Of a stretch of 64,000 bases of DNA, positions 20,389 through 63,150 are shown piece after piece (within the stretch, counting starts at the first letter, position 1; each line of letters starts with the position of its first letter). The position numbers were made by a program, and so were the translations under genes. This DNA is from Antedon mediterranea (Eukaryota > Echinodermata > Crinoidea > Comatulida > Antedonidae): NCBI RefSeq assembly GCF_964355755.1, contig NC_092670.1, positions 17,421,201-17,485,200 of the forward strand, in the 5' to 3' direction. The notes below the pieces were generated by a model, which worked only from the letters and a program-made list of their open reading frames with translations, was not told where the DNA came from and did no database searches.

Positions 20389-20533
20389 GATTCCCATATA
20401 GGACATCGTAAAGACGTATACAAGCAACGCAAGTAAATTTACAAATCACAAATGACAGAACATCCGAATTGATTGGTCAAATTAATTTAGTTGTGCGTAC
20501 GTCTGTGCCCATGCGCCCTATGAGAACAAGCTT
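20389..20533. mobile_element. Copy of the hairpin MITE downstream of DBF4
   Basis: Starts near ACTTGATTCCCATATAGGAC, continues with ACGTATACAAGCAACGCAAG and an internal TTGATTGGTCAAATT, and ends CCTATGAGAACAAGCTTT. The ends and internal motifs match the hairpin at 5827-5988. In the other Ig units only the last roughly 18 bases (CTATGAGAACAAGCTTT) remain, next to a large deletion. Confidence 0.65.
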
Positions 20534-20755
20534 TCACATTGTGCTCGTCACTGACGGTTCTAACTTCTTACTACTGTAGTAAATAAATGGTTATTTTTAT
20601 TCGTTACGTACATGATGAGTAGATCTCCATTATAAAGTATTTTATATTGTTATTTAATAAAACAAAAACATGGAGTTACTATGCAAAAAAAAATGTGTTA
20701 GGCCTACAGGTACTTTGATTATGAGTTTGCAGCAATTATGACGGAAAACATCTTT

Positions 20756-22548
20756 AAAAATCAATCAATCAATCAATAATTTTTATTTCTCAAATAAAAA
20801 CAAAATACAGTTAACATTTTCTAAAAATAATAGATAATAAATGAGAAAAAGGGGTACCCCACTGGAAGCTTAAGCTTTAAAATGTGGGGTCCTGGCAACA
20901 TAATTAAAATAAGGTAAGGTAAGAAATATATATAATATATGATAATGAACATAAAAAGACATTTAACTTAACAAATGCAGTTATTATTTGACTTAAGACA
21001 GATATATGATCAACTTAAACAATAATAGTAGAAACAAGGTATTCATGTAGTTTGAACTTAAATGAAGATATAAAATTAATAATTTTAATTTCGACTGGTA
21101 AAGAATTCCAAATTTTTGGTCCTTGAAAAGTTATATCATGCTTGCCAACCTCCGTATTAAAACAATCATAAGCATAATCAAATTTATTTCTGGTATTATA
21201 ATTATGAACTGAACTAAAAGTTTGAAAATAAGTATCAAAAATTCTGGGCAGTTGATTATGTTTGAATTTAAACATAAATAAAGCAACATTTTTTGTAAGT
21301 AAGTCGTAAATATTAAGTGTATTAGATAAGACAAAAAGAGGAGCAGAATGGTGGAGTTAATGAACATTATAAACTGATCTTAAAGCTCTTTTTTGCAAAA
21401 TATAAATACGGTTTAAATTAATTTTTGAAGTAAAACCCCAAACGGTTATACCATAAATTAAATGTGGCAAAAAGATTGATTTATAAATTAATAGTAAAAC
21501 GGAGGAAGGCAAGGCATGTTTGAGTTTATTGAGGACACCAACCACTCTTGATAGTTTTAATGAAATTGTATTAATATGAGAAATAAAAGATAAGTATTCG
21601 TCAATAAAAATGCCAAGAAATGTTGTTGCTTTAGTTCTTTCAATTTCGCTGATGCCGTAATATAATTTAGGAATGTTGGTGGGGATTAGTTTATTAACTG
21701 AACGAAAAATAATAAATTTGGTTTTTTTAATATTTAACGAAAGCTTATTTGATTTTAACCAGTTTGCAATTTTAGTAAGTTCTGGATTCATTAAAATAAT
21801 AGCTTGGTAGATGTCCTTATGATTAATAAATAAACTTTTATCATCTGCAAACGTAACAATTTCAGCACAATCACTAATATAATTTAAATCATTAATAAAT
21901 AACAGAAATAAAAGCGGACCAAGGATGGATCCCTGTGGAACACCACACGAAACTGGCCGCAGCTCAGAGACAATATCATTGATTGATATATATTGATGTC
22001 TGTTACTTAAATAATTTTCGAACCACTTAAGTGGTATACCTCTTATACCATAGAAACGTAACTTATTAATTAAAATATCATGAGAAATACAATCAAAAGC
22101 CTTTGACAGGTCAATAAAAACTCCTAAAGTAAATTGTTTATTATCAATAGCAGACAAAATATTATGGATTGAATGATGGATGGCATGTATTGTAGAATGT
22201 TGGGAACGAAAACCAAACTGAGAATTGCTGAGGATGTTAAACTTTGTAAGAAATGAAATAGTTTGATCATAAACTATTCTTTCAAGTAGTTTAGAAATAG
22301 TTGGCAAGATGGAGATGGGCCTATAGTTATTGATATTTGAGACCTCACCACCTTTATGGATGGGTACAACTTTAGCAATTTTCATTGCATTTGGAACCAC
22401 ACCCTTTACTAAAGACATGTTCATTATGAATGTTAGTGGTATAGCTAATGCCAATGGACATATCTTTAGTATATATGGACCAATGTTATCAAAACCAGGA
22501 GCTGTTGATTTTAAATTATTTATGTATGTTACTAATTCTTGTTCAAAA
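20756..22548 (-). mobile_element. 5'-truncated LINE (Jockey/CR1-like non-LTR retrotransposon)
   Basis: The element interrupts a sequence that is continuous in the other Ig-array spacers (ACACCTTTAAAAAGAGATTA at about 25376-25395). Left flank CTTTAAAAA, right flank AAAAAGAGATTATC; the A-run may be a short target duplication or microhomology. On the minus strand it ends in a short (TTGA)n tail at 20757-20772, as some LINE clades do. Only the second half of the reverse-transcriptase ORF is present. The empty paralogous sites show that the insertion is specific to unit A. Confidence 0.85.
21015..22548 (-). pseudogene. Reverse transcriptase fragment with one in-frame stop
   Basis: Open from the 5' truncation at about 22548 (EQELVTYINNLKSTAPGFDN region) through the RT palm motifs: NNYRPISILP, GFRSQHST, FIDLSKAFDCISH, SCGVPQGSILGPLLF and the catalytic FADDKSLF. 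A TAA at 21357-21359 interrupts the frame after SVYNVH. The same frame then continues for 114 codons (HNYNTRNKF, GPKIWNSLP) to a normal-looking end at 21015. There is no frameshift: a single nonsense change plus 5' truncation. Endonuclease and ORF1 are absent. It cannot move on its own. Confidence 0.9.
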
Positions 22549-23219
22549 AGAGATTATCAATACATATATATAATAGTTGTTTCATCGTGGTTGTAATATA
22601 CACATTTATGATGGTTAGGCAGATAACACCTATCGATCCATCGAGTTTTGTCAAGCGTTTATGAACTGATCCGTGAAACCTAAAAGCCACCAAAACCCAC
22701 ATACCATTCCGTTTACCATCAATACCAATCACCTTTGTAACTCTTTTTTAATACTTTTCTTCTTAAATTTTAACATTTTATAATCATGTTAATGCTCTAT
22801 TTACAATATTATAGAAAATGTAGGCCTACCAGCATATATTAGCTTAAAATAAGATGAAATGAAATCAATTTATATTTTCGAAATTGAAATTCGTTCATAA
22901 TTTTCCTTCACCTTCTATTATGAGACTACAAGGGAGGTGCAAGAATAACAACACCACTGAAGCATGCACCTCATTGCAAACATTACGATTGAAGCAATTG
23001 ATTTAAACCATAATGTTTTCAAATATAATATACATACTAATATTTATATTTCATTGATGATATGAAATGGCAAATATTCAGGAATAAATTGTTCAATAAT
23101 AATGAACTACTATAACAATCTATACAATCGAATTTTTCCTAATAACCTTTTTTCTATTGGCACTACGTCTTCTGCTTTCCAAAAATATTGATAATACAAA
23201 CAAATTATATTGACATTCT

Positions 23220-24329
23220 TTATATCAAAGAACATTCTAATCGATTTATACTGTTTTTAGTCTTTATTATAATGAAAATGAAGACAGCGGTCACAACTAT
23301 CACCCCTCCAGCGATAAGTGTTGAACGAAGAGGAGCATATCTGTTAGTCGTACGTTTGACACTTAATTCAACGGTATGACTAGCTTCACCAATATCGTTT
23401 TTAGCTTGGAACTTAATTGTGACACCGTTGTCATTTGCCGTAAGTTTTTGTTTGTTGGAAAGATGAGTAATCCCTTGACTCTGAACTAGTTCAGCGTTGC
23501 TGCAAACCATGCTCTCTATTATTTCATTTTTCCGCAAACATTCCCAGGTTACTTCTGCCGTGGGGTTAGCCGACACATTTATTGGTATGTCTAGATAATC
23601 CCCTACGTCGTATTCTATCGTATGAGACATCTCAAATTGTGGTCGATACTGAACGTTAAGTCGTGTAGAACAAGACAACGTTTTTGGAATAAGATCATGC
23701 GTCAGCGAACAGTTAAAGCTGGTCATTTCACGTGTTGCGTTTATTGGCAAAGTAGCTATACTTCTTTCTTGAAGGCCATTGGGACGTAGGATCGCTTTTG
23801 CAATTGGCTGTTTGGTATCCACCATCCGTACTTCGACACTTCCTGCAATGTCACCAATGGTGACATTGCACGACAACGTGACAGTCTCACCTTCTGAAAC
23901 ATCAGGCCTATCTATACCACATAACAAATCTGGAACATTCACGACATCGACGTCTATTTCCACTACATGAGATGTTAAACCCGTTATAGAAATGTGTTTG
24001 CAAATATAAAGGCCTTCATCAAATTGTGTAATGTTGGTTATAACAAGACGATAATTGTGTGTTACCTTGTCAAACTTGAGTCCGTATGAATCTTTAAATG
24101 ATGCAACAACACTATCGTTAATACTGACTTTAGTCTCCGCAGTTGTACCATTGCTGACATAATACCATTCTACGTCATGATCGTCTGTATTTCCAACTTC
24201 GCAATCTAAAACAGCATTTTTTCCAACATTAAATGTTAATGTAATTCGTGATGATTGGGTTTTTGACAAACAATTATAGAATAACCCCAAAATTATGTAG
24301 AGGTAAACTGCTTTACCAGTGAAAGCCAT
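23220..24329 (-). CDS. Ig-receptor copy A: intronless three-Ig, single-TM surface protein
   Basis: A single uninterrupted 369-codon frame. Residues 1-25 form a signal peptide (MAFTGKAVYLYIILGLFYNC). Ig1 is V-like: C in AVLDCEV, W in VEWYY, and EGLYICK before the strand-F Cys. Ig2 has C in VTLSCNV and C in MTSFNCS. Ig3 (about 230-325) has VTWEC, but the usual strand-F Cys position reads FQAKND. A transmembrane segment lies at about 331-353 (LIAGGVIVVTAVFIFIIIK), with a very short tail. There are many N-glycosylation sites. The Ig1 half is identical to copies B-D, but the Ig2 stretch (VRMVDTKQPIAKAILRPNG) matches copy F, so the copy looks chimeric. Ligand and function are unknown; adhesion or immune recognition is a guess. 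A compact TATA promoter lies just upstream. Confidence 0.88.
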   Translation of the reverse strand: MAFTGKAVYLYIILGLFYNCLSKTQSSRITLTFNVGKNAVLDCEVGNTDDHDVEWYYVSNGTTAETKVSINDSVVASFKDSYGLKFDKVTHNYRLVITNITQFDEGLYICKHISITGLTSHVVEIDVDVVNVPDLLCGIDRPDVSEGETVTLSCNVTIGDIAGSVEVRMVDTKQPIAKAILRPNGLQERSIATLPINATREMTSFNCSLTHDLIPKTLSCSTRLNVQYRPQFEMSHTIEYDVGDYLDIPINVSANPTAEVTWECLRKNEIIESMVCSNAELVQSQGITHLSNKQKLTANDNGVTIKFQAKNDIGEASHTVELSVKRTTNRYAPLRSTLIAGGVIVVTAVFIFIIIKTKNSINRLECSLI

Positions 24330-24439
24330 GATACAAAAATTAATGGTTGTTTCTTCTTCCGAGTAGATGTAGAACTAAACAAAATTCGCTTAACGTTTTT
24401 ATTTTGTTTCGAGTTTCGAAATATTAGAAATTACAGTTA

Positions 24440-24520
24440 TTTATTTATAGACAACTTTAATTATGCAATAATTCACCTATTGTTGAATGACCAATAGAGT
24501 ATAAGCGCGTCATGATTCTC
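24440..24520 (-). promoter_or_regulatory. Core promoter of Ig copy A, conserved in all copies
   Basis: On the minus strand, TCTATAAATAA (24441-24450) lies about 115 bp upstream of the ATG. Upstream of it are TTATTGCATAA (24460-24471; C/EBP-like), ATTCAACAATAGG (SOX-like core), ATTGG (an inverted CCAAT box, 24491-24495) and ATCATGACGCGC (about 24506-24517). The same order is found upstream of B (27419-27499), C (about 33808-33888), D (36787-36867) and, with changes, E (about 39585-39660), F (about 41585-41655) and relic G (about 42940-43010). The TATA position implies a short, intronless leader. Confidence 0.65.
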
Positions 24521-25834
24521 ATTGTAATTGAAATGTAGAAAAACTTAAAATAAATTTGTCGTTAACACAATAACAAACAATGTTAGGCCAAATCAATTGA
24601 AAACAATATTGCTCTTTTATTCATTTGTATGCGGTATTGATTGATCAAGTGGTTAAATCAATTTTTTCGATTTACATTTGTTTTAAATAATTGGCCCCAC
24701 TCTAGACTCTGGGAAAAATCCCAACAACGTTAAATTCGAGTTATCTTATAGGCCTACTTGATAACATTTTGTCTTTCATAGAACATTATATTTGTTTATA
24801 TCTATAGTATTGAAAAATCTTATTATTGTCTTTGAAAGTTTTAGATGTCAGATAATAAATATTGTATATCTATAATCTTAAATCAATCTAGATTTAAAAA
24901 CCTTAGTTGTACTTCTACCTCTTCTGTAATGTTCATCTGTTTTCCACTTTTGTGTTTATATTCTCAACTTTTATAGACACTTTTTAAGCCTACAGGTTTT
25001 AAAAAATTATATATATTATAACGGTTTTAGTCAAACGTCGTGTGTGGCAACCTTTATCTTGATTTTCTTGATTATAGTCTATATCAACAAACAAATTATC
25101 ATCCTTTTCAGTTTCGCAATCATCGATACCATCCTAACACAATTATAAATTCTATGAGAACAAGCTTTCACATTGTGATCGTCACTAACGGTTCCGGTTC
25201 CAACTTTTTACTACTGTAGTAAATAAATGGTTATATTTATTGGCCACGTACATGATAAGTAGATCTACATTATAAAGTATTTTATATTGTTATTTAATAA
25301 AACAAAAAAAATGGAGTTACTATGCAAACAACAGTGTTACTTTGATTATGAGTTTGCAGCAATAATGACGGAAAACACCTTTAAAAAGAGATTATCAATA
25401 CATATATAGTTTGTTTCATCGTGTTAGTATGTAATATACAAAACGTATGATGGTTATCTATAGGCAGATAACTGAAAAAGTTACCAACCACCTATCGATC
25501 CATCAATTAATAAAGTTGTATTTTTTTTCTTTTTAAAGATTTGTCAGGCGTTTACTAGGAAACTGATCCGTGAAACCTAAAAGCTACCAAAATCGGAACA
25601 AAACCCACATACCATTCCGTTTACCATCAATACCAATCACCTTTGTAACTCTTATTTTTATACTTTTCTATTTAAATGTTAACATTTTATAATTATGGAA
25701 AAATTTAGGCCTACAAACATATAATATATATTAGCTTAAAATAAGATGAAATTAATTTATATTTTCGAACTTGAAATTCGTTCATAATTTTCCCTTCACC
25801 TTCTATTATGGGACTATAAGGGAGATGCAAGAAT

Positions 25835-26210
25835 CAACGGCGCAGATCCGTTTGGGGGACGTATAACAACAATCAAATACTTTGCGAGTAACTTTAGGCT
25901 GGGCCCCCCGGCTCTTTGAGTAACTTATAGGTCGTTTCAATCGATTTGTGAGCACATAAAAATTAAAGAATACAATTATTTTGGGTTACGCTCTTTTTAG
26001 ACACTAGTCCTGATGCGCCATTGGTATTCACTCAAAATCTAGTCTTCTTAGATACTGTATTTTCTGAAATTTCATACGATATGTCGATAGAAGTCTTGCT
26101 TTCTATTTCATTTCAACAATTTAATGATTTTGCTGTTGAAAAGTGAGGGGCACTAAAGAATATGTGGGGAACACGTCCCCCAGACCCCCCACCCCGGGAT
26201 CTGAGCTGCA
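25835..26210. repeat. Repeat-like insertion or replacement at the 3' end of Ig copies B, C and D
   Basis: Unit A and units B-D align up to GGAGATGCAAGAAT and again from ATTTATACTGTTTTTAG. Between these points B-D carry an unrelated 376-bp segment, also at about 28814-29189 and 35203-35578. It contains GGGCCCCCC, GGGGAACACGTCCCCC and AGACCCCCCACCCCGGG, a composition unlike the surrounding AT-rich DNA and like 3' ends of dispersed elements. It supplies the last 29 codons of copies B and D. Confidence 0.7.
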
Positions 26211-27308
26211 ATTTATACTGTTTTTAGTATATATTATAATGGAAACGAAGACAGCGGACACAACTACCAACCCTCCAACGATAAGTGCTAAATAAAGAGG
26301 AGAAAATCTGTTTGTCGTACTTTTGACACTTAATTCAACGGTATGACTAGCTTCACCAACATCGTTTTTAGCTTGGAACTTAATTGTGACACCGTTGTCA
26401 TTTGCCGTCAGTTTTTTGTTGTTGGAAAGATGAGTAATCCCTTGACTTTGAACTACTTCGGCGTTGCTGCAAACTATGCTCTCTATTATTTCATCATTCC
26501 GAAAACATTCCCAGGTTACTTCTGCCGTGGGGTTAGCCGACACATTTATTGGTATGTCTAGATAATCCCCTACGTCGTATTCTATCGTATGAGACATCTC
26601 AAAGTGTGGTCGATACTGAACGTTAAGTCGCATCGAACAAGACAGCGTTTTTGGAATAAGATCATGCGTCAGCGAACACTTAAAGCTGGTCATTTCACGT
26701 GTTGCGTTTATTGGCAAAGTAGCTATACTATCTTGAATTCCATTGGGACGTAGGCGGATCTCTTTCGCAATTGAATGTGTGGTAGGCCTACCCACCTCCA
26801 CCATCCAGATTTCAACACTTCCTGCAATGTCACCAATGGTGACATTGCACGACAACGTGACAGTCTCACCTTCTGAAACATCAGGCCTATCTATACCACA
26901 TAACAAATCTGGAACATTCACGACATCGACGTCTATTTCCACTACATGAGATGTTAAACCCGTTATAGAAATGTGTTTGCAAATATAAAGGCCTTCATCA
27001 AATTGTGTAATGTTGGTTATAACAAGACGATAATTGTGTGTTACCTTGTCAAACTTGAGTCCGTATGAATCTTTAAATGATGCAACAACACTATCGTTAA
27101 TACTGACTTTAGTCTCCGCAGTTGTACCATTGCTGACATAATACCATTCTACGTCATGATCGTCTGTATTTCCAACTTCGCAATCTAAAACAGCATTTTT
27201 TCCAACATTAAATGTTAATGTAATTCGTGATGATTGGGTTTTTGACAAACAATTATAGAATAACCCCAAAATTATGTAGAGGTAAACTGCTTTACCAGTG
27301 AAAGCCAT
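26121..27308 (-). CDS. Ig-receptor copy B: intronless three-Ig, single-TM surface protein
   Basis: A 395-codon frame with the same plan as copy A: signal peptide, V-like Ig1, C2-like Ig2, a Cys-poor Ig3 and a TM segment near 334-356 (LALIVGGLVVVSAVFVSIII). Ig2 carries a variant loop (IWMVEVGRPTTHSIAKEIRL) that is longer than in A and F. The tail after TKNSIN is not the RLECSLI of copy A but 29 residues read from the inserted GC-rich segment (starting CSSDPGVGGLGDVFPTYSLV). The promoter is the conserved TATA type. The protein is identical to copy D. Function unknown. Confidence 0.88.
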   Translation of the reverse strand: MAFTGKAVYLYIILGLFYNCLSKTQSSRITLTFNVGKNAVLDCEVGNTDDHDVEWYYVSNGTTAETKVSINDSVVASFKDSYGLKFDKVTHNYRLVITNITQFDEGLYICKHISITGLTSHVVEIDVDVVNVPDLLCGIDRPDVSEGETVTLSCNVTIGDIAGSVEIWMVEVGRPTTHSIAKEIRLRPNGIQDSIATLPINATREMTSFKCSLTHDLIPKTLSCSMRLNVQYRPHFEMSHTIEYDVGDYLDIPINVSANPTAEVTWECFRNDEIIESIVCSNAEVVQSQGITHLSNNKKLTANDNGVTIKFQAKNDVGEASHTVELSVKSTTNRFSPLYLALIVGGLVVVSAVFVSIIIYTKNSINCSSDPGVGGLGDVFPTYSLVPLTFQQQNH

Positions 27309-29944
27309 GATACAAAAATTAATGGTTGTTTCTTCTTCCGAGTAGATGTAGAACTAAACAAAATTCGCTTAACGTTTTTATTTTGTTTCGAGTTTCGAAA
27401 TATTAGAAATTACAGTTATTTATTTATAGACAACTTTAATTATGCAATAATTCACCTATTGTTGAATGACCAATAGAGTATAAGCGCGTCATGATTCTCA
27501 TTGTAATTGAAATGTAGAAAAACTTATAATAAATTTGTCGTTAACACAATAACAAACAATGTTAGGCCAAATCAATTGAAAACAATATTGCTCTTTTATT
27601 CATTTGTATGCGGTATTGATTGATCAAGTGGTTAAATCAATTTTTTCGATTTACATTTGTTTTAAATAATTGGCCCCACTCTAGACTCTGGGAAAAATCC
27701 CAACAACGTTAAATTCGAGTTATCTTATAGGCCTACTTGATAACATTTTGTCTTTCATAGAACATTATATTTGTTTATATCTATAGTATTGAAAAATCTT
27801 ATTATTGTCTTTGAAAGTTTTAGATGTCAGATAATAAATATTGTATATCTATAATCTTAAATCAATCTAGATTTAAAAATCTTAGTTGTACTTCTACCTC
27901 TTCTGTAATGTTCATCTGTTTTCCACTTTTGTGTTTATATTCTCAACTTTTATAGACACTTTTTAAGCCTACAGGTTTTAAAAAATTATATATATTATAA
28001 CGGTTTTAGTCAAACGTCGTGTGTGGCAACCTTTATCTTGATTTTCTTGATTATAGTCTATATCAACAAACAAATTATCATCCTTTTCAGTTTCGCAATC
28101 ATCGATACCATCCTAACACAATTATAAATTCTATGAGAACAAGCTTTCACATTGTGATCGTCACTAACGGTTCCGGTTCCAACTTTTTACTACTGTAGTA
28201 AATAAATGGTTATATTTATTGGCCACGTACATGATAAGTAGATCTACATTATAAAGTATTTTATATTGTTATTTAATAAAACAAAAAAAATGGAGTTACT
28301 ATGCAAACAACAGTGTTACTTTGATTATGAGTTTGCAGCAATAATGACGGAAAACACCTTTAAAAAGAGATTATCAATACATATATAGTTTGTTTCATCG
28401 TGTTAGTATGTAATATACAAAACGTATGATGGTTATCTATAGGCAGATAACTGAAAAAGTTACCAACCACCTATCGATCCATCAATTAATAAAGTTGTAT
28501 TTTTTTTCTTTTTAAAGATTTGTCAGGCGTTTACTAGGAAACTGATCCGTGAAACCTAAAAGCTACCAAAATCGGAACAAAACCCACATACCATTCCGTT
28601 TACCATCAATACCAATCACCTTTGTAACTCTTATTTTTATACTTTTCTATTTAAATGTTAACATTTTATAATTATGGAAAAATTTAGGCCTACAAACATA
28701 TAATATATATTAGCTTAAAATAAGATGAAATTAATTTATATTTTCGAACTTGAAATTCGTTCATAATTTTCCCTTCACCTTCTATTATGGGACTATAAGG
28801 GAGATGCAAGAATCAACGGCGCAGATCCGTTTGGGGGACGTATAACAACAATCAAATACTTTGCGAGTAACTTTAGGCTGGGCCCCCCGGCTCTTTGAGT
28901 AACTTATAGGTCGTTTCAATCGATTTGTGAGCACATAAAAATTAAAGAATACAATTATTTTGGGTTACGCTCTTTTTAGACACTAGTCCTGATGCGCCAT
29001 TGGTATTCACTCAAAATCTAGTCTTCTTAGATACTGTATTTTCTGAAATTTCATACGATATGTCGATAGAAGTCTTGCTTTCTATTTCATTTCAACAATT
29101 TAATGATTTTGCTGTTGAAAAGTGAGGGGCACTAAAGAATATGTGGGGAACACGTCCCCCAGACCCCCCACCCCGGGATCTGAGCTGCAATTTATACTGT
29201 TTTTAGTATATATTATAATGGAAACGAAGACAGCGGACACAACTACCAACCCTCCAACGATAAGTGCTAAATAAAGAGGAGAAAATCTGTTTGTCGTACT
29301 TTTGACACTTAATTCAACGGTATGACTAGCTTCACCAACATCGTTTTTAGCTTGGAACTTAATTGTGACACCGTTGTCATTTGCCGTCAGTTTTTTGTTG
29401 TTGGAAAGATGAGTAATCCCTTGACTTTGAACTACTTCGGCGTTGCTGCAAACTATGCTCTCTATTATTTCATCATTCCGAAAACATTCCCAGGTTACTT
29501 CTGCCGTGGGGTTAGCCGACACATTTATTGGTATGTCTAGATAATCCCCTACGTCGTATTCTATCGTATGAGACATCTCAAAGTGTGGTCGATACTGAAC
29601 GTTAAGTCGCATCGAACAAGACAGCGTTTTTGGAATAAGATCATGCGTCAGCGAACACTTAAAGCTGGTCATTTCACGTGTTGCGTTTATTGGCAAAGTA
29701 GCTATACTATCTTGAATTCCATTGGGACGTAGGCGGATCTCTTTCGCAATTGAATGTGTGGTAGGCCTACCCACCTCCACCATCCAGATTTCAACACTTC
29801 CTGCAATGTCACCAATGGTGACATTGCACGACAACGTGACAGTCTCACCTTCTGAAACATCAGGCCTATCTATACCACATAACAAATCTGGAACATTCAC
29901 GACATCGACGTCTATTTCCACTACATGAGATGTTAAACCCGTTA

Positions 29945-32900
29945 TAGTAGAGCAGTTAACGCCATAAAAATAGCCAAGTTGTGCACTTTATTACCAAAGC
30001 ATGAAACATGCCACAAAGTTTCTTTGATGTGTATAGATTCAAAATATCGGGGGGTGCCAAGTGTCCAACGTCCGGTATGGCGGCCATCTTGATTTCAAAA
30101 TGGCCACCATAAAAACAAAAAGTGTTCATATCTTGGCAACTATAAACAGTAGAGACTTGATTCTGGTGTTAAATTGTTCACAAACCACATATTTCTATTT
30201 GTTCTAATGAAAAGTTTCGTAAAAAAATGATCGGAAATGACGTTTCTTCCAGTTTGACCTTTGACCTCTTATCTGTATATCTCGGTAACTACTGATCATT
30301 TTCAATCGATTTTGGTGTCATTTTGTTCAGAATAGAGACATTTATATTTGTAGTAATGAAACATTTTCACATAAAATGACTGGAAATACAATTTATAACC
30401 TTTGACATATATAATTATGTGAACATATTGTATGTGGTCTACATTGATATAATGCACTTAATTTTTTTTACCGAAATAAATGACACTTAATGAAAAAATG
30501 ACCAGGAATTATTCTGAATTTTTTACTTTTGATGTGATAGGATAGGCGTAAAGTATGACAGATCACTGAGAAACATCAATCACTGAGCTCATCTATGCCG
30601 ACTTGTTTGCTAAACTGTGATGTGTCAATCGTTAGATAAAAGTTTTGGTCCTCTCTCCTCCTTCATCTTTTCTTTTTTTTTTGTAATGTATTATACCATA
30701 TGGACAATTGTCTGAAATAAAAGTTGAATTGAATTGTTAGATGCCATTTGGAAATATTTTTTCGTTGGCCTCTTTGATGTTGCATATGAGACAAGTTCGG
30801 AAAGTTCTCATTTTCACGAGTTAAGAGAACACCGTCTTTCAAAGTACTTACTACAAACTAATCCTGCATTTGTGCAGTAGACCTACTTTCATTAGTCCGA
30901 AACTCAGATAATTCTTGTTCATTTTCGTTGCATCTAAAAAAATGTACTCCATTTTTATGGTAATGGGCCTTTGCTGTAAACCATCTGAATCCTTTTCCTC
31001 GATTTTCTCTAGTCATTGATTTTTTAGCAAAATCCCAACCAAATCAATTCGTAAAAGACATCTCAATATAATTATTCAAGTAATCCTCAAATTAGTGACA
31101 TGGACCTACAATATACTGTTCTGTACAAGACCTTTTTAGGCATCCACCTGTGGACTTTCACTTTGAAGGTCTTGGTCTCCTAATCATACAAGAAACAATG
31201 TCTGATTTAATCAATCATAGTAGTGGGTCCAGACAAAGAAGGGGGTGTAAGACCATCCACAGACAAAGAAGGGGGTATAAGACCATCCACAGACAAAGAA
31301 GGGGGTATAAGACCATCCACAGACAAAGAAGGGGGTATAAGACCATCCACAGACAAAGAAGGGGGTGTAAGACCATCCACAGACAAAGAAGGGGGTGTAC
31401 GACCATCCACACACAAAGAAGGGGGTATAAGACCATCCACAGACAAAGAAAGGGGTGTAAGGCCATCTACAGACAAAGAAGGGGGTGTAGGACCATCCAC
31501 AGACAAAGAAGGGGGTGTAAGACCATCCACAGACAAAGAAGGGGTGTAAGACCATCCACAGACAAAGAAGGGTGTAGGACCATCCACAGACAAAGAAGGG
31601 GGTGTAGGACTATCCACAGACAAAGAAGAGGGTGTAAGACCATCCACTGACAAAGAAAGTGGTATAGGACCACTTACAGACAAAGAAGGGGATATAAGAC
31701 CATCCACAGACAAAGAAGGGGGTATAAGACCATCCACAGACAAAGAAGGGGGTGTAGGACCATCCACAGACAAAGAAGGGGTGTAAGACCGTCCACAGAC
31801 AAAGAAGGGGATGTAAGACCATCCACAGACAAAGAAGTGGGTATAAGACCATCCACAGACAAAGAAGGGGGTATAAGACCATCCACAGACAAATAAGGGG
31901 TATAAGACCATCCACAGACAAAGAAGGGGGTATAAGACCATCCACAGAGAAAGAAGGGGTGTAAGACCATCCACAGACAAAGAAAGGGTGTAAGACCATC
32001 CACACACAAAGAAAGGGGTGTAAGACCATCCACACAAAAAAAAAGGGTGTAATACCATCAACAGACAAAGAAAGGGGGTATAAGACCATCCACAGACAAA
32101 GAAGGGGGTATAAGACCATCCACAGACAAAGAAGGGGTGTAAGACCATCTACAGACAAAGAAAAGGGTGTAAGACCATCCACACACAAATAAAGGGGTGT
32201 AAGACCGTCCACAGACAAAGAAGGGGATGTAAGACCATCCACAGACAAAGAAGTGGGTATAAGACCATCCACAGACAAAGAAGTGGGTATAAGACCATCC
32301 ACAGTCAAAAAAGGGGGTGTAGGACCATCCACAGACAAATAAGGGGGTATAAGACCATCCACAGACAAAGAAGGGGGTATAAGACTATCTACAGACAAAG
32401 AAGGAGGGGTAGGACCATATTAACCGAGGAAGCATACAAAAAGAAGATGCAATCAAAATAGGACTTGGAAAACAATAAATTGTAGAATAACTGAGGCTTG
32501 ATTGTTGAAATATAAAGGGTTCTTTGTAAGGTCATTAATAATATATTGATATAAACACGATCATCATACTATTCATTTGACATTCAAATACAGTCTATCT
32601 CGAAAAGAAGCTCATGAATACTATCACCTTTTCAAGGTTTTACGGTATTCCATAACATGTATCTTATTTCCTCTGTCAAACTATTAAAACTTTTAGCGAA
32701 TCAGAAGGTGCCAACATCATTGAATTAATGGTACCACCCAGCACATTGTTTACCAATTTTATGTAACATATACAATTTAAGTCCATTAATCATTTAATAT
32801 AATTACGCCTATCAGGTCAAAGTTAAAAATTAGATGCATTTAAGACCAACACAAACCCACATACAGTATATTCACATAATTAAAAATCAATAAATAAATG

Positions 32901-33351
32901 TCAAAGGTCATAAATTGTATTTCCGGTCATTTTATGTGAAAAGGTTTCATTACTACAAATATAAATGTATTTATTCTGAACAAAATGACACCAAAATCGA
33001 TTGAAAATGACCAGTAGTTACAGAGATATACAAATACGAGGTCAAAGGTCAAACTGAAAGAAACGTCATTTCCGGTCATTTTTTGACGAAAATTTTCATT
33101 AGAGCAAATAGCAATATATAGTTTGTGAACAATTTGAGACCAGAATTAAGTCTCTAATGTGTATAGTTGCCAAGATATGAACATTTTTTGTTTTTATGGT
33201 GGCCATTTTGAAATCAAGATGGCCGCCATACCGGACGTTGGACACTTGGCACCCCCTGATATTTTGAATCTATATATATTAAAGAAACTTTGTGCCAAGT
33301 TTCATGCTTTGGTAATAAAATGCACAGCTCATGTCACTAACTGCTCTACTA
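29945..33351. mobile_element. 3.4-kb fold-back element with TTA target duplication
   Basis: The ends are TAGTAGAGCAGTTA and its exact reverse complement. The flanking TTA (29942-29944 and 33352-33354) is present once in copies B and D. The inverted arms are long, about 480 bp each (29945-30430 and about 32870-33351), and imperfect. They share CCAAGTGTCCAACGTCCGG, ATGGCGGCCATCTTGATTTC and CAAAGGTCA-type blocks. The interior has no transposase: about 750 bp of AT-rich DNA, then the 30-bp minisatellite, then about 450 bp more. It is a non-autonomous DNA element. A 3-bp TTA duplication is compatible with the Harbinger superfamily, but the termini differ from those of the Harbinger at 43233. Confidence 0.85.
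31230..32412. repeat. 30-bp minisatellite, about 39 copies
   Basis: Unit GACAAAGAAGGGGGTATAAG followed by ACCATCCACA. The first dozen copies keep strict 30-bp register. Later copies lose one to three bases in the G run, which breaks the register. Variation is mostly GTATAAG/GTGTAAG/GTGTAGG and the number of Gs. Because 30 is divisible by three, long frames open on both strands (CGWSYTPFFV-type and RRGYKTIHRQ-type repeats); these are by-products, not genes. Confidence 0.95.
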
Positions 33352-35488
33352 TTATAGAAATGTGTTTGCAAATATAAAGGCCTTCATCAAATTGTGTAAT
33401 GTTGGTTATAACAAGACGATAATTGTGTGTTACCTTGTCAAACTTGAGTCCGTATGAATCTTTAAATGATGCAACAACACTATCGTTAATACTGACTTTA
33501 GTCTCCGCAGTTGTACCATTGCTGACATAATACCATTCTACGTCATGATCGTCTGTATTTCCAACTTCGCAATCTAAAACAGCATTTTTTCCAACATTAA
33601 ATGTTAATGTAATTCGTGATGATTGGGTTTTTGACAAACAATTATAGAATAACCCCAAAATTATGTAGAGGTAAACTGCTTTACCAGTGAAAGCCATGAT
33701 ACAAAAATTAATGGTTGTTTCTTCTTCCGAGTAGATGTAGAACTAAACAAAATTCGCTTAACGTTTTTATTTTGTTTCGAGTTTCGAAATATTAGAAATT
33801 ACAGTTATTTATTTATAGACAACTTTAATTATGCAATAATTCACCTATTGTTGAATGACCAATAGAGTATAAGCGCGTCATGATTCTCATTGTAATTGAA
33901 ATGTAGAAAAACTTATAATAAATTTGTCGTTAACACAATAACAAACAATGTTAGGCCAAATCAATTGAAAACAATATTGCTCTTTTATTCATTTGTATGC
34001 GGTATTGATTGATCAAGTGGTTAAATCAATTTTTTCGATTTACATTTGTTTTAAATAATTGGCCCCACTCTAGACTCTGGGAAAAATCCCAACAACGTTA
34101 AATTCGAGTTATCTTATAGGCCTACTTGATAACATTTTGTCTTTCATAGAACATTATATTTGTTTATATCTATAGTATTGAAAAATCTTATTATTGTCTT
34201 TGAAAGTTTTAGATGTCAGATAATAAATATTGTATATCTATAATCTTAAATCAATCTAGATTTAAAAACCTTAGTTGTACTTCTACCTCTTCTGTAATGT
34301 TCATCTGTTTTCCACTTTTGTGTTTATATTCTCAACTTTTATAGACACTTTTTAAGCCTACAGGTTTTAAAAAATTATATATATTATAACGGTTTTAGTC
34401 AAACGTCGTGTGTGGCAACCTTTATCTTGATTTTCTTGATTATAGTCTATATCAACAAACAAATTATCATCCTTTTCAGTTTCGCAATCATCGATACCAT
34501 CCTAACACAATTATAAATTCTATGAGAACAAGCTTTCACATTGTGATCGTCACTAACGGTTCCGGTTCCAACTTTTTACTACTGTAGTAAATAAATGGTT
34601 ATATTTATTGGCCACGTACATGATAAGTAGATCTACATTATAAAGTATTTTATATTGTTATTTAATAAAACAAAAAAAATGGAGTTACTATGCAAACAAC
34701 AGTGTTACTTTGATTATGAGTTTGCAGCAATAATGACGGAAAACACCTTTAAAAAGAGATTATCAATACATATATAGTTTGTTTCATCGTGTTAGTATGT
34801 AATATACAAAACGTATGATGGTTATCTATAGGCAGATAACTGAAAAAGTTACCAACCACCTATCGATCCATCAATTAATAAAGTTGTATTTTTTTTCTTT
34901 TTAAAGATTTGTCAGGCGTTTACTAGGAAACTGATCCGTGAAACCTAAAAGCTACCAAAATCGGAACAAAACCCACATACCATTCCGTTTACCATCAATA
35001 CCAATCACCTTTGTAACTCTTATTTTTATACTTTTCTATTTAAATGTTAACATTTTATAATTATGGAAAAATTTAGGCCTACAAACATATAATATATATT
35101 AGCTTAAAATAAGATGAAATTAATTTATATTTTCGAACTTGAAATTCGTTCATAATTTTCCCTTCACCTTCTATTATGGGACTATAAGGGAGATGCAAGA
35201 ATCAACGGCGCAGATCCGTTTGGGGGACGTATAACAACAATCAAATACTTTGCGAGTAACTTTAGGCTGGGCCCCCCGGCTCTTTGAGTAACTTATAGGT
35301 CGTTTCAATCGATTTGTGAGCACATAAAAATTAAAGAATACAATTATTTTGGGTTACGCTCTTTTTAGACACTAGTCCTGATGCGCCATTGGTATTCACT
35401 CAAAATCTAGTCTTCTTAGATACTGTATTTTCTGAAATTTCATACGATATGTCGATAGAAGTCTTGCTTTCTATTTCATTTCAACAAT

Positions 35489-36676
35489 TTAATGATTTTG
35501 CTGTTGAAAAGTGAGGGGCACTAAAGAATATGTGGGGAACACGTCCCCCAGACCCCCCACCCCGGGATCTGAGCTGCAATTTATACTGTTTTTAGTATAT
35601 ATTATAATGGAAACGAAGACAGCGGACACAACTACCAACCCTCCAACGATAAGTGCTAAATAAAGAGGAGAAAATCTGTTTGTCGTACTTTTGACACTTA
35701 ATTCAACGGTATGACTAGCTTCACCAACATCGTTTTTAGCTTGGAACTTAATTGTGACACCGTTGTCATTTGCCGTCAGTTTTTTGTTGTTGGAAAGATG
35801 AGTAATCCCTTGACTTTGAACTACTTCGGCGTTGCTGCAAACTATGCTCTCTATTATTTCATCATTCCGAAAACATTCCCAGGTTACTTCTGCCGTGGGG
35901 TTAGCCGACACATTTATTGGTATGTCTAGATAATCCCCTACGTCGTATTCTATCGTATGAGACATCTCAAAGTGTGGTCGATACTGAACGTTAAGTCGCA
36001 TCGAACAAGACAGCGTTTTTGGAATAAGATCATGCGTCAGCGAACACTTAAAGCTGGTCATTTCACGTGTTGCGTTTATTGGCAAAGTAGCTATACTATC
36101 TTGAATTCCATTGGGACGTAGGCGGATCTCTTTCGCAATTGAATGTGTGGTAGGCCTACCCACCTCCACCATCCAGATTTCAACACTTCCTGCAATGTCA
36201 CCAATGGTGACATTGCACGACAACGTGACAGTCTCACCTTCTGAAACATCAGGCCTATCTATACCACATAACAAATCTGGAACATTCACGACATCGACGT
36301 CTATTTCCACTACATGAGATGTTAAACCCGTTATAGAAATGTGTTTGCAAATATAAAGGCCTTCATCAAATTGTGTAATGTTGGTTATAACAAGACGATA
36401 ATTGTGTGTTACCTTGTCAAACTTGAGTCCGTATGAATCTTTAAATGATGCAACAACACTATCGTTAATACTGACTTTAGTCTCCGCAGTTGTACCATTG
36501 CTGACATAATACCATTCTACGTCATGATCGTCTGTATTTCCAACTTCGCAATCTAAAACAGCATTTTTTCCAACATTAAATGTTAATGTAATTCGTGATG
36601 ATTGGGTTTTTGACAAACAATTATAGAATAACCCCAAAATTATGTAGAGGTAAACTGCTTTACCAGTGAAAGCCAT
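35489..36676 (-). CDS. Ig-receptor copy D: intronless three-Ig, single-TM surface protein
   Basis: A 395-codon frame whose protein is identical to copy B, including the repeat-derived C-terminal tail. The upstream promoter and downstream spacer are nearly identical to those of B as well. It lies 2,979 bp upstream (in map terms, to the right) of copy C. Such identity means very recent duplication, gene conversion or an assembly duplication. Confidence 0.88.
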   Translation of the reverse strand: MAFTGKAVYLYIILGLFYNCLSKTQSSRITLTFNVGKNAVLDCEVGNTDDHDVEWYYVSNGTTAETKVSINDSVVASFKDSYGLKFDKVTHNYRLVITNITQFDEGLYICKHISITGLTSHVVEIDVDVVNVPDLLCGIDRPDVSEGETVTLSCNVTIGDIAGSVEIWMVEVGRPTTHSIAKEIRLRPNGIQDSIATLPINATREMTSFKCSLTHDLIPKTLSCSMRLNVQYRPHFEMSHTIEYDVGDYLDIPINVSANPTAEVTWECFRNDEIIESIVCSNAEVVQSQGITHLSNNKKLTANDNGVTIKFQAKNDVGEASHTVELSVKSTTNRFSPLYLALIVGGLVVVSAVFVSIIIYTKNSINCSSDPGVGGLGDVFPTYSLVPLTFQQQNH

Positions 36677-37740
36677 GATACAAAAATTAATGGTTGTTTC
36701 TTCTTCCGAGTAGATGTAGAACTAAACAAAATTCGCTTAACGTTTTTATTTTGTTTCGAGTTTCGAAATATTAGAAATTACAGTTATTTATTTATAGACA
36801 ACTTTAATTATGCAATAATTCACCTATTGTTGAATGACCAATAGAGTATAAGCGCGTCATGATTCTCATTGTAATTGAAATGTAGAAAAACTTATAATAA
36901 ATTTGTCGTTAACACAATAACAAACAATGTTAGGCCAAATCAATTGAAAACAATATTGCTCTTTTATTCATTTGTATGCGGTATTGATTGATCAAGTGGT
37001 TAAATCAATTTTTTCGATTTACATTTGTTTTAAATAATTGGCCCCACTCTAGACTCTGGGAAAAATCCCAACAACGTTAAATTCGAGTTATCTTATAGGC
37101 CTACTTGATAACATTTTGTCTTTCATAGAACATTATATTTGTTTATATCTATAGTATTGAAAAATCTTATTATTGTCTTTGAAAGTTTTAGATGTCAGAT
37201 AATAAATATTGTATATCTATAATCTTAAATCAATCTAGATTTAAAAACCTTAGTTGTACTTCTACCTCTTCTGTAATGTTCATCTGTTTTCCACTTTTGT
37301 GTTTATATTCTCAACTTTTATAGACACTTTTTAAGCCTACAGGTTTTAAAAAATTATATATATTATAACGGTTTTAGTCAAACGTCGTGTGTGGCAACCT
37401 TTATCTTGATTTTCTTGATTATAGTCTATATCAACAAACAAATTATCATCCTTTTCAGTTTCGCAATCATCGATACCATCCTTACACAATTATAAATTCT
37501 ATGAGAACAAGCTTTCACATTGTACTCGTCACTAACGGTTCCGGTTTCAACTTCTTACTACTGTAGTAGCCTAAATAAATGGTTATTTTTATTGGCCACG
37601 TACATGATAAGTAGATCTACATTATAAAGTAGTTTATATTGTTATTTAATAAAACAAAAAAATGGAGTTACTATGCAAAAAGAATGTGTTATACTTTGAT
37701 TATGAGTTTGCAGCAACAATGACGGAAACACTTTTTAAAA

Positions 37741-38309
37741 AGTGATTATCAATAAAGCCGGCCGACACGACCGTAACTTAAATTTTAACACAACGCAACA
37801 GCAGTGCCACATTCCCCAACCCCTCCAAATTAAACATTGCATGCAAAGCTCTGATTTGCTGTGCACTTTTTATAAGTTTATTACGTATTATCGCAGTGCA
37901 GCGTTGTTATACCTTTGTAATTTAGTTTTATACTTTTCTTCAAAAAATGTAATATTTTATAATTATTCTGCTCTATTTACAGTTTATGACAGTAGGCCTA
38001 CAAGCATATGATATTAGCTTAAAATAAGATGAAATAAAACAATTTCTAATTATAATACACATAATAATATTTATATTTCATTTGATAATAACATGGCAAA
38101 TATTAAGGAATATTGTTCAATAATAATGAAAACTGCTATAAAAATCTATACAATTTAATTTTACCTAATAAAACTGGAAACTTCTTCATTCAAAAAATAT
38201 TGATAATCATAATCCAAACAATTTACTGACTTTCCTTATATCAAAGGAATATTCTAATTCAGTTTCGATTGATTTCTACCAAGGTAGGCCTACTGAGTAA
38301 TTAACTGTA
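37741..38309. other. Junction between the near-identical units and the diverged Ig copies
   Basis: Spacer homology to the other units ends near 37745 (AAAAAGTGATTATCAATAAA). A short unrelated stretch follows to about 37905, then spacer homology resumes (TTATACTTTTCTTC, ACATTTTATAATTATTCTGC) towards copy E. No gene. Confidence 0.5.
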
Positions 38310-39469
38310 TTAAATCCGCTGTATTAAATCCATGTTATCTATTATTATGTATCTCCGAATTAACTGTTCTATAAAGTTTACTCCATGGGTAATTACATAT
38401 CCTATAATGCAAGCCAAACAACAGGACACAACCATCAACCAACCGACTTGTATTACTAAATTAAAAAGAGCATATCTGTTAGTCGTACTTTTGACATTTA
38501 ATTCAACGGTATGACTAGCTCCACCAACATCATTTTTAGCTTGAAACTTAATTGTGATACCGTTGTCATTTGCCCTCAGTTTTTGTTTGTTGGAAAAATG
38601 AGTAATCTCTTGACTTTGAACTAGTTCAGCTTTGCTGCAAACTATGCTCTCTATTATTTCACCATTCCGCAAACAGTTCCAGGTTACTTTTGCCGTGGGG
38701 TTAGCCGACACATTTATTAGTATATGTCTAAATAATCCCCTACGTCGTATTCTATCGTATGAGACAGCTCAAATTGTGGTCGATACTGAACGTTAAGTCG
38801 TATCGAACAAGACAGCGTTTCTGGAATTAGATCATGCGTCAGCGAACAGTTAAAGCTGGTCATTTCACGTGTTGCGTTTATTGGCAAAGTAGCTATACTC
38901 CTTTCTTGAAGTCCATATAGGATCGCTTTTGCAATTGGCTGTTTGGTATCCACCATCCATATTTCGACACTTCCTGCAATGCCACCAATGGTGGCATTGC
39001 AGGACAACGTGACAGTCTCACCTTCTGAAACATCAGGCCTATCTATACCACATAACAAATCTGGAACATTCACGACATCGACGTATATTTCCACTACATG
39101 AGATGTTAAACCCGTTTTAGAAATGTGTTTGCAAATGTAAAGGCCTTCATCCAATTGTGTAATTTTGATTATAACAAGACGATAATTTTCCGCCGTGTCA
39201 AACTCAATTTGGTATAAATCTTTAAATTTTGCAACAACACTATCGTTAATACTGATTTTAGTCTCCGCAGTTGTACCATTACTGGCATCAAAATACCATT
39301 CTACGCCATACTCGTCTGCGCTTCCAAGTTTGCAATCTAAAACAGCGTTTTTATTTCCAACAATTAATGGCAATGTAACTCGTGATGATTCGGTTATTGA
39401 CAAACAAGAGAATAACCCCAAAATTATGTACAGGTAAACTGTTTTACCAATGAAAGCCATGATACACAA
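38310..39469 (-). pseudogene. Ig-receptor copy E, frameshifted
   Basis: Residues 1-250 follow the family plan (signal peptide, Ig1 with AVLDCKLG and GLYICKH, Ig2 with VTLSCNA and TSFNCS). At the start of Ig3 a 2-bp gain near 38717-38725 turns the family's GDYLDIPINV into GDYLDIY followed by a stop. The remaining Ig3 and TM segment continue in another frame (38711-38310), ending in a longer tail (VITHGVNFIEQLIRRYIIID) than copies A-D. As read, the product would be secreted and lack Ig3. It is more diverged from A-D than they are from one another, so it belongs to an older layer of the array. Confidence 0.85.
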
Positions 39470-40263
39470 CGTAGTTGTTTCTGAGTCAAAACGCTAAACA
39501 AAATTTGTTTATGATTTCATTTTAAGTTGCGTATTTATTTTTAATACATTTTCAATCGAAGTATTATACATTTTGACAGTTGTAGTATTTATAGAACACA
39601 TTTTATGCAATAATGCATCTATTGTTGAATGAACCAATAGAGTATAAGCGCGTCATGATTCTCATTGTAATTGAAATGTAGAAAAGCATTGTTTTACTGG
39701 TAGGACGTGTTACATAAATTGGTCGTGAACACATAACAAACAATGTTAAACCAAAATCAATTGAAAACAATATTGCTCTTTAATTCATTCGTATGCGGTA
39801 TTGATTGATCAAGTGGTTAAATCAATTTTTTCACTTTACATGTTTTTTTTTTTAATTGGCCCCACTCTAGACTCTGGGAAAAATACCAACAACGTTAAAT
39901 TCGAGTTATCTTATAGGCCTACTTGATAACATTCTGTGCGACACTGTCTTTCATAGAACATTATATTTGTTTAGATATATAGTATTGAAAAATCTTATTA
40001 TTGTTTTTGAAAGTTTTAGATGTCAGATAATAAATATTGTATATCTATAATCTTAAATCAATCTAGATTTAAAAACCTTAGTTGTACTTCTATCTATATA
40101 ATTTAATTTTCCCTAATAACACTGGAAACTTCTTCATTCAAAAATATTGATAATCGATAATCCAAACAAATTACTGACTTTCCTTATATCAAAAGAACAT
40201 TCTAATTCAATTTCGATTGATTTCTACTAAGGTAGGCTATACTGAGTAATACCTAAATTTAGC

Positions 40264-41478
40264 CTAATTATAGGCGCGACCTACTGTATTAAATCCACTG
40301 AACGCATGATTCATGTTATCTATTATTATGTATCTCCGAATTAACTGTTCTATAAAGTTTACTCCATGGCTAATTAATTGTCCTATAATGTAAGCCAAGC
40401 AACAGGGCACAACTACCAACCAACCGACTTGTATTACTAAATTTAAAGGAGCATATATGTTAGTCGTACTTTTGACACTTAATTCAACGGTATGACTAGC
40501 TTCACCAACATCATTTTTAGCTTGAAACTTAATTGTGAGGCCGTTGTCACTTCTTGCCGTCAGTTTTTGTTTGTTGGAAAAATGAGTAATCCCTTGACTC
40601 TGAACTAGTTCAGCGTTGCTGCAAACCATGCTCTCTATGATTTCATCATTCAGAAAACATTTCCAGGTTACTTCTGCCGTGGGGTTAGCCGACACATTTA
40701 TTGGTATGTCTAGATAATCCCCTACGTCGTATTCTATCGTATGAGACATCTCAAATTGTGGTCGATACTGAACGTTAAGTTGTATCGAACAAGACAGCGT
40801 TTTTGGAATAAGATCATGCGTCAGCTAACAGTTAAAGCTGGTCATTTCACGTGTTGCGTTTATTGGCAAAGTAGCTATACTCCTTTCTTGAAGGCCATTG
40901 GGACGTAGGATCGCTTTTGCAATTGGCTGTTTGGTATCCACCATCCGTACTTCGACACTTCCTGCAATGCCACCAATGGTGACATTGCACGTGGTGACAT
41001 TGCACGACAACGTGACAGTCTCACCTTCTGAAACATCAGGCTTAGGCTTATCTATACCACATAACAAATCTGGAACATTCACGACATTCACGTATATTTC
41101 CACTACATGAGATGTTAAACCCGTTTTAGATTTTTTTTTGCAGATGTAAAGACCTTCATAAAATTGTGTAATTTTGGTTATAACAAGACGATAATTGTCC
41201 GCCGTGTCAAACTCTATTTGGTATAAATGTTCAAATTTTGCAACAACACTATAGTTAATACTGATTTCAGTCTCCGCAGTTGTACCATTACTGGCATCAA
41301 AATACCATTCTACGCCATACTCGTCTGAGCTTCCAAGTTTGCAATCTAAAACAGCGTTTTTATTTCCAACAATTAATGTCAATGTAACTCGTGATGATTC
41401 GGTTATTGAAAAACAAGAGAATAACCCCAAAATTATGTAGAGGTAAACTGCTTTACCAATGAAAGCCATGATACACAA
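40264..41478 (-). pseudogene. Ig-receptor copy F, nonsense mutation in Ig2
   Basis: One frame from 41478 to 40264, broken only by a TAG at 40825-40827 where the other copies have a Ser codon (TCG) after TSFNC. Ig1 also shows decay (EGLYICKKKSK, with Y replacing D before it). Ig2 carries a 15-bp in-frame tandem duplication (CNVTTCNVT). The tail is long and E-like (SHGVNFIEQLIRRYIIID). Ig2 shares the IAKAILRPNGLQERS form with copy A. A truncated secreted product is conceivable but unsupported. Confidence 0.85.
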
Positions 41479-42089
41479 CGTGGTTGTTTCTTCTTCAGAG
41501 TAGATATAGACTGGAACTAAAAAAAATCGCTTAACGTTTTTATTTTGTTTCGATTTTCGAAATATTAGAAATTACAGTTATTTATTTATAGACAACTTTA
41601 ATTGCGCGTTAATGCACCCATTGTTGAACCAATCGAGAAGTAAGCGCGTCATGATATATTGAAATTCAAATGCGCTGCAGAAACAACATTTTTTGAATGG
41701 TAGCGTTTTATGCATTGGTGGATGACATGATATTATAATGAAATCAACCGAATTAATTGAAAATATTATTGCTCTTTTATTCATTACTACCCGATTCCCA
41801 GTGCCCCATACTACAATATTTACCAAATAGGAATATTTGGTAATAATATACAGTACGGTACCGTATCTCATCGTGTCATCTATTTTCAAAAAAACCTTCC
41901 GTACCATTTCGTATTTTAAAATTCGCTTACCTCAGCACTACAACGGATATGTAGACTTTCCAATTGATGGTCGGTCGCAACATTCACATTAACATTGGGA
42001 TCCCACATTTAAAAGAGCGTTCGGCCGGTCCTGTTTGCAGTAGGCATAATGTGGTAGTAATAGGCCTAATATAACAAAATTATTATATT
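41479..42089. other. Upstream region of copy F and spacer
   Basis: The F promoter (TTTATTTATAGAC near 41580; CCAATCGAG near 41630) is followed by AT-rich spacer with no gene. GGTCGGTCGCAACATTCACA through GGCCGGTCCTGTTTGCAG (about 41969-42035) resembles the sequence that flanks the Harbinger element on both sides (43180-43232 and 49547-49580). Confidence 0.5.
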
Positions 42090-43030
42090 TTATCTGAAAT
42101 AATATTGATTATATTCTGTGTTTCCAACTTTACAGTCTAAGAATAGCGTTCTTTCTAACAATTTAATTAAGTTTTAATGTAATTCCTAATGATGATGATG
42201 ATTTCTTCGTAATACTCTGTTTTTGTATCCTCTTTAATATTATTTTAACTCATATTTCTACTTATATTAATACCAATAACAATATCAACAATACTGAACA
42301 TTATTTATGTTAAATCATATTTTATTATGTCTATCAGTAATGCTGCAAATTATAAAGCTGAAAACAGCATAAATATAGTTATAGTTGTAGTTATAGTATA
42401 CTGTATCTACATATTTTCCCTTGTTTTGTTTAGTTATCTTTCCTTTTCTATCATACACATATATATTATAAGACATGTTTTTATATCTATAATAAATCAT
42501 AATTGTAACCTATAAGAGATTTTAATATTTTCTTAATGAATAGTTTGTAGTGTAGGCCTATAATTTCTTCTGACTAATCTCGACTCTGATAAATCATTTT
42601 AATTAAAAAAAATATGTACAGGCCTAACTTAGGCAAATATATAATTTTTTTTTTAAAGAATATAGTTTTTAATATTTCTTTGCCTCTTGTAATTTACATT
42701 ATATTATGGTGTTAACAATAGTATATAGCTAATACATTTCTTCATATTCTTCATGATTGGGTTTTTTACCCAAAAAAAAGAAAAAGATGCACAGTCTGAG
42801 TCATGGTTTTTTCTTCTTCAATAAACTAAACACAATTCGCTTACGTTTTCATTTGTTTTGAATCTTTGTAATTCGTTTCATTACACTTCAACAATCGAAT
42901 TTTTTTAAATGTTGACAGTTACCGTAGCCTAATATTTATTTATAGAAAACATTAATTGCGCATAATGCACCTATTATTGAATACAGCAGTATAAGCATGT
43001 CATGATTATTGATTTGAAATAAATTTATTT
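42090..43030 (-). pseudogene. Ig-receptor relic G
   Basis: Around 42115-42230, blocks such as TTTCCAACTTTACAGTCTAA and TTAATGTAATTCCTAATGATG match the Ig1 coding region of the other copies (AVLDC and signal-peptide neighbourhood) but are full of indels and an ATG microsatellite. At 42800-43020 the leader and promoter are recognisable (TTTTTTCTTCTTCAATAAAC, ATTCGCTTACGTTTTC, TATTTATTTATAGAAAAC, GCATAATGCACCTATTATTG, ATGTCATGATTATTG). No reading frame remains. This is the oldest visible copy. Confidence 0.6.
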
Positions 43031-62233: not shown

Positions 62234-62431
62234 TGTCTCCAAAAATAATGTAGGAAATTAATGTGTTTTAAGTCTATTGTACATTAAATATAATAATGTC
62301 AATTTATAATAAATTATTGATTAATGCAAATTTGATTCATTATATTTGTAAATTTGTCACATTATATTACGAAGTGTATTATTTGAGAGGAATATATGTT
62401 GGACGCGTTCAGTCACGTGATTGTCTACCGA

Positions 62432-63150
62432 CCAAAGTAAGCAATGATTGGTCCATGAAACTAACTTACCTAGGTAAATAACTAAGCATGAACAGGCCCA
62501 AGTAAGCAATGATTGGTCCATGAAACTAACTTACCTAGGTAAATAACTAAGCATCAACAGGCCCAAGTAAGCAATGATTGGTCCATGAAACTAACTTACC
62601 TAGGTAAATAACTAAGCATCAACAGGCCCAAGTAAGCAATGATTGGTCCATGAAACTAACTTACCTAGGTAAATAACTAAGCATGAACAGGCCCAAGTAA
62701 GCAATGATTGGTCCATGAAACTAACTTACCTAGGTAAATAACTAAGCATGAACAGGCCCAAGTAAGCAATGATTGGTCCATGAAACTAACTTAGCTAGGT
62801 AAATAACTAAGCATGAACAGGCCCAAGTAAGCAATGATTGGTCCATGAAACTAACTTACCTAGGTAAATAACTAAGCATGAACAGGCCCAAGTAAGCAAT
62901 GATTGGTCCATGAAACTAACTTACCTAGGTAAATAACTAAGCATCAACAGGCCCAAGTAAGCAATGATTGGTCCATGAAACTAACTTACCTAGGTAAATA
63001 ACTAAGCATCAACAGGCCCAAGTAAGCAATGATTGGTCCATGAAACTAACTTACCTAGGTAAATAACTAAGCATGAACAGGCCCAAGTAAGCAATGATTG
63101 GTCCATGAAACTAACTTACCTAGGTAAATAACTAAGCATCAACAGGCCTA
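62432..63150. repeat. 65-bp satellite, 11 copies, downstream of METTL2
   Basis: Unit AGTAAGCAATGATTGGTCCA, then TGAAACTAACTTACCTAGGT, AAATAACTAAGCATGAACAG and GCCCA. Copies begin at 62436, 62501, 62566 and so on. Only two variant sites were seen: GCATGAAC versus GCATCAAC, and one copy with TTAGCTAGG. The unit contains ATTGGTCCA and the palindrome CCTAGG. Very high homogeneity points to recent amplification. Confidence 0.95.

Follow-up and report, generated by a model that had tools for sequence, protein, structure and literature searches.

A tandem array of single-exon three-Ig membrane receptor genes in Antedon mediterranea and its relatives across the genome

We analyzed a 64-kb stretch of the Antedon mediterranea genome (C1:17421201-17485200, referred to throughout as the window); the genome comprises 354.4 Mb in 11 large chromosomes (41.4 to 22.3 Mb) plus small scaffolds, and GC content is ~31 to 35% in most of the loci we fetched from it. 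The assembly contains no COX1. The window contains an array of related Ig-domain genes, all on the minus strand (Table 1). The preliminary description of this DNA listed seven copies, A to G, representing every stage from intact (A, B, and D) through transposon-split (C), frameshifted (E), and nonsense-bearing (F) to relic (G); we found all seven where it had placed them and located each lesion individually. The frames of A and B are far longer than chance would produce, the longest ATG-initiated frame in 40 Markov-1 simulations of the 64-kb window being 165 aa. The array also extends further than had been described: degraded flank copies downstream of A had been overlooked, and these are interrupted by a reverse-transcriptase fragment (21357-22454). 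Within the 64-kb window, we found no RNA families or tRNAs.

Table 1. Genes, remnants, and insertion of the array, with positions counted from the first nucleotide of the window
Feature	Position	Strand	Description
Copy A	23220..24329	-	Intact single-exon gene, 369 aa; hybrid: 5' flank, signal peptide, and V as in B, Ig2 F-like, own short tail
Copy B	26121..27308	-	Intact single-exon gene, 395 aa; tail with YSLV
Copy C, 3' part	29100..29947	-	Remainder of Ig1 through the stop codon; no difference from B/D
TIR transposon inserted in copy C	29948..33351	.	3404 nt; inverted arms ~440-540 nt; 30-bp minisatellite inside
Copy C, 5' part	33352..33697	-	Signal peptide and most of V domain
Copy D	35489..36676	-	Intact single-exon gene, 395 aa; encodes the same protein as B
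Copy E	38310..39460	-	Pseudogene, one 2-nt insertion near 38725; TM/tail type different
Copy F	40264..41469	-	Pseudogene, single in-frame stop codon (40825-40827); tail of the E type
Relic G	42115..43020	-	79-nt 5' coding piece (42115-42193) and 5' flank (42803-43020)
Decayed flank sequence of the array, downstream of A	19400..23241	-	19400-19551, 20518-20760, 22644-22946, 23017-23241

The encoded proteins share one order of parts (signal peptide, V-set Ig, C2-like second Ig or Ig2, atypical third Ig or Ig3, transmembrane segment [TM], and short tail), which is that of a type I membrane protein and would place them at the cell surface. The intronless three-Ig membrane architecture first proposed for these genes is borne out by their single-exon frames, Ig profile matches, Cys pairs, and hydrophobic TM. 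The V-set profile matched with 44.6 bits (cut-off 26; E = 2e-11), and the I-set profile matched two stretches (E = 4e-16). In protein B, the V domain has the canonical Cys-Trp-Cys arrangement (C43, W55, and C110, with C43-C110 as the pair), Ig2 has a C154-C211 pair together with an extra Cys pair (C137/C224), the TM is a hydrophobic segment at about residues 334-365, and a hydrophobic leader can be read from the translation. Ig3 had rightly been called atypical: its only cysteines are 268 and 280, so that the canonical disulfide pair is absent, yet the domain can be aligned to the family. Structure prediction was of poor quality (pLDDT 40). The tails in the window, read from translations, are KTKNSINRLECSLI; ...FPTYSLVPLTFQQQNH; ...RRYIIIDNMDLIQRI. 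The same reading revealed no ITIM or ITAM in these tails and no charged residue in the TMs.

Copies B, C, and D are repetitions of one 2979-nt unit; B and C do not differ over 758 nt, and the units spanning the B/C and C/D junctions differ at one position in 2985 nt. A single base difference over this length is also what one might see if the B-C-D repetition were an assembly artefact in which a single gene, or a pair of haplotypes, had been wrongly strung together. We consider this improbable because the 3.4-kb insert is present in C alone, because A, E, and F are strongly different yet continue the same array, and because falsely joined haplotypes would be expected to show heterozygous differences throughout. 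The insert is itself a transposon, as the preliminary description had it, and of the TIR DNA kind: it has terminal inverted repeats, it is flanked by a 6-bp target duplication (TTATAG at 29942-29947 and 33352-33357), and its arm is present in at least 40 genome copies at 97 to 100% identity. The family to which it belongs has been recently active.

Copy A is a hybrid. Over 2227 nt that cover the upstream flank and the V domain, it differs from B at 2 positions, and over the next 740 nt at 63 (binomial p ~1e-82). Up to nt 480, the informative sites in A unite A and B against F at 82 of 83, while at nt 495-630 all 12 of 12 unite A and F against B; A is therefore a recombinant, a mosaic of B and F. 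A and B are thus identical through V and differ in their tails. Near-identical units, broken copies, and a transposon-split copy together substantiate the birth-and-death turnover previously suggested for the cluster. Unequal crossing-over and gene conversion may have copied the 2979-nt unit to give B, C, and D, made the hybrid A, and left the broken copies E, F, and G, with C presumably split by the transposon after the array had formed.

We then compared rates of change along the genes. Between B and E or F, synonymous divergence (dS) is ~0.06 to 0.27 in the ectodomain domains and 0.7 to 1.0 in stalk, TM, and tail, the latter values being a guide only, since the tail is partly without clear homology; the excess in tails is pronounced (Fisher p = 5e-5 and 2e-8). 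Coding indels between copies through the end of Ig3 measure 3, 6, 9, 12, or 15 nt, the exceptions being the 2-nt lesion of E and a 20-nt gap in F at the end of the alignment, whereas upstream indels are of many sizes. This contrast indicates that the frames were maintained under selection until single lesions broke them. Calculations of dN/dS for each Ig domain, a check proposed in the preliminary description, gave V-domain values of 0.14/0.12 (B-E) and 0.17/0.19 (B-F). A dN about equal to dS could reflect either diversifying selection or weak constraint and, because the values come from two pseudogenes and few sites, relaxed constraint would fit as well; with so few sites, and with pseudogenes among the sequences compared, positive selection could not be demonstrated in the window copies. 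The V-domain values, the broken state of four of the seven copies, and a related pseudogene with stops at C1:22.177 Mb are all consistent with a decaying side branch whose copies are mostly unexpressed. We think this unlikely, as indels remain in frame, with one exception, across up to ~20% divergence, three frames are intact, two of them identical, and A, B, D, and F have all retained a TATA-like site ~120 nt upstream. Beyond this common site, inspection for promoter and polyadenylation signals yielded nothing informative.

A protein search with B identified relatives at C6:30.32 Mb (40% identity), C3:0.44-0.53 Mb (28-42%), and C1:22.18 Mb (39%), which lie in one open frame except for a neighboring pseudogene and fragments. 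Using B and three other members as queries and counting frames of ~340 aa or more, we found at least 154 distinct single-frame Ig ORFs across the genome: 50 in C3:18.70-18.92 Mb, 21 in C3:11.7-11.9 Mb, 11 in C3:0.43-0.54 Mb, 25 on C11, 10 on C7, and others elsewhere. These need not have a common origin, as matches of 25 to 30% identity could reflect Ig similarity alone. In an IQ-TREE phylogeny, the window pair falls into a clade of 10 rows (100/99) with the C6, C1, and C3:0.44-0.53 Mb genes.

These relatives bear directly on where the single-exon state came from. The preliminary description had proposed a retrogene origin for the cluster itself, from a parent gene with introns, and a later tandem expansion. 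In other Ig genes of this genome, introns separate V from the Ig exon that follows, the V exons on C8 have flanking introns, and relatives on other chromosomes would also be compatible with retroposition. We searched the genome for an intron-containing parent, and none matched, although weak or short exons can escape such a search. The relatives found elsewhere (21-42% identity) are likewise in one open frame, none is split into exons, and the tree unites the window clade with the single-exon genes at C3:0.44-0.53 Mb, C6, and C1:22 Mb. We conclude that the single-exon state predates the cluster, and we regard a separate retrogene origin as very unlikely; any retroposition would have to date back to the base of the whole superfamily, which has at least 154 members, and the poly-A remnant and target duplication of so old an event would probably have been lost. 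Our analysis thus corrects the idea that the cluster is necessarily a recent retrogene; the cluster matters chiefly as the point where a large superfamily of intronless Ig genes comes into view.

On C3, two sister clusters vary in the opposite direction from the window cluster. Among eight genes at C3:18.73-18.75 Mb, synonymous difference is ~0.4 to 0.57 in the ectodomain and 0.05 to 0.07 in the TM and most of the tail, and among four genes at C3:11.87-11.90 Mb, it falls from ~0.6 to 0.11 at the TM and tail. Low synonymous change in these segments points to conversion or recent exchange and not to protein constraint alone. The sister clusters have a common tail and a varied ectodomain; the window cluster has the reverse, similar ectodomains with divergent tails, an arrangement that would present homologous ectodomains on different tails.

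Vertebrate paired receptors (KIR, SIRP, and CEACAM) are clustered membrane Ig receptors with shared or homogenized ectodomains and differing TMs and tails. The identical V domain and different tails of A and B are reminiscent of such pairs; unlike them, the window genes have no ITIM or ITAM tail and no charged TM residue and consist of a single exon, the homology we see being that of Ig domains. In Hydractinia, the Alr family counts 41 genes in the allorecognition complex (PMC11999971), and the likeness to the window cluster is one of arrangement only, Alr being from a distant animal lineage. The sea urchin SpTransformer (185/333) genes are a clustered, unstable immune gene family with segmental duplications (PMC5103432, PMC8634487); they resemble the window array as an unstable gene cluster in an echinoderm, but their two-exon genes encode non-Ig proteins.

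The closest published precedent is echinoderm kirrelL, likened here by its published description. In every echinoderm examined, this gene has no introns; its product, a transmembrane protein with Ig domains, is required for cell fusion, and the gene has been proposed to stem from retrotransposition early in echinoderm evolution (PMC8903837). The main rival to a recognition role is that the window genes are KirrelL-type adhesion or fusion proteins that serve skeletogenic cell contact or fusion and were duplicated without acquiring any role in recognition. The window genes share with kirrelL a single coding exon, Ig domains, and a TM; the host looks ambulacrarian; and SYG-2 is matched both by the family profile, along with CEACAM, DIP, and Robo-type proteins, and by a sister-cluster protein, which also matches CADM4 and nectin-3. 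We nevertheless judge this alternative rather unlikely. KirrelL is reported to be well conserved across the phylum and skeletogenic in function, while the window set is a fast-changing tandem array, and more than 150 single-frame genes with rapid turnover would be unusual for a morphogenetic effector.

The family profile resembles V-type recognition and adhesion receptors (CEACAM and DIP), and the superfamily probably acts in cell-surface recognition or adhesion. Adhesion is the main alternative function given the adhesion proteins (CADM4 and nectins) among these matches; the presence of proteins with a purely adhesive function among the nearest profile matches counts against a recognition role, as does the lack of signaling motifs and charged TM residues noted above. 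For the window proteins, recognition is the most likely, though unproven, role. On balance, we somewhat favor the view that the window holds a young tandem array within an older intronless Ig-receptor superfamily, whose members would use the V domain at the cell surface to bind partners that vary, in recognition of an immune or self/non-self kind. More tentatively, the superfamily may constitute a novel recognition system, ambulacrarian and possibly crinoid, that is diversified in the germline and comprises at least 154 multi-Ig receptors without introns; in it, conversion would act on separate gene halves so that some clusters combine a common tail with varied V domains and the window cluster a shared V with different tails. 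Known invertebrate recognition systems are mostly TLR, NLR, SRCR, or lectin expansions, and a system of this kind, if real, would offer a tractable case of Ig receptor diversification without somatic recombination. In this large intronless family, birth, hybrid formation, and death are all visible, and ectodomain and tail appear to evolve separately.

We also recorded several features beyond the array. The region C3:18.70-18.92 Mb contains ~50 tandem single-exon three-Ig genes, within which the TM and tail of a sub-array are nearly identical while the V domains are different. At C2:37.03 Mb, a single-frame Ig receptor of ~620 aa or more has a long tail with ITIM-like YxxL-type motifs (e.g., LKYADL). 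At C3:0.448 and 0.464 Mb (L039:2246-4189 and L041:3-1091), an Ig receptor frame runs on without a shift into a PHD-like zinc-finger stretch resembling retrotransposon ORF1, and a reverse-transcriptase frame lies just downstream of the first copy. On C8, 35 near-identical V-type exons of alternating types stand in tandem at 5.1215-5.141 Mb, ~460 to 600 nt apart and with phase-1-like borders, and dozens more V exons are found besides; the tandem could encode one protein with a great many V domains, or its exons could be mutually exclusive.

Elsewhere in the window, DDE_Tnp_4 transposase frames occur with a Myb/SANT-like frame, a pairing seen in PIF/Harbinger elements (44027-45244 and 48808-49200), tandem repeats have periods of ~71 and 65 nt (60046-60827 and 62424-63148), and frames match inositol polyphosphate kinase (56232-56630; E = 1e-29) and a rhodopsin-family receptor (63494-63907; E = 1e-8). 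The 11 chromosomes, a miR-2011-like hairpin, and tektin similarity suggest an ambulacrarian host, perhaps a crinoid. A 22-mer with one mismatch to sea urchin miR-2011 occurs once, in a 95-nt hairpin (-38.4 kcal/mol). Tektin exons were far closer to the tektins of 8snb, which we take to be a sea urchin sperm structure entry, than to the other listed tektins (211 versus 135 bits and 175 versus 136 bits).
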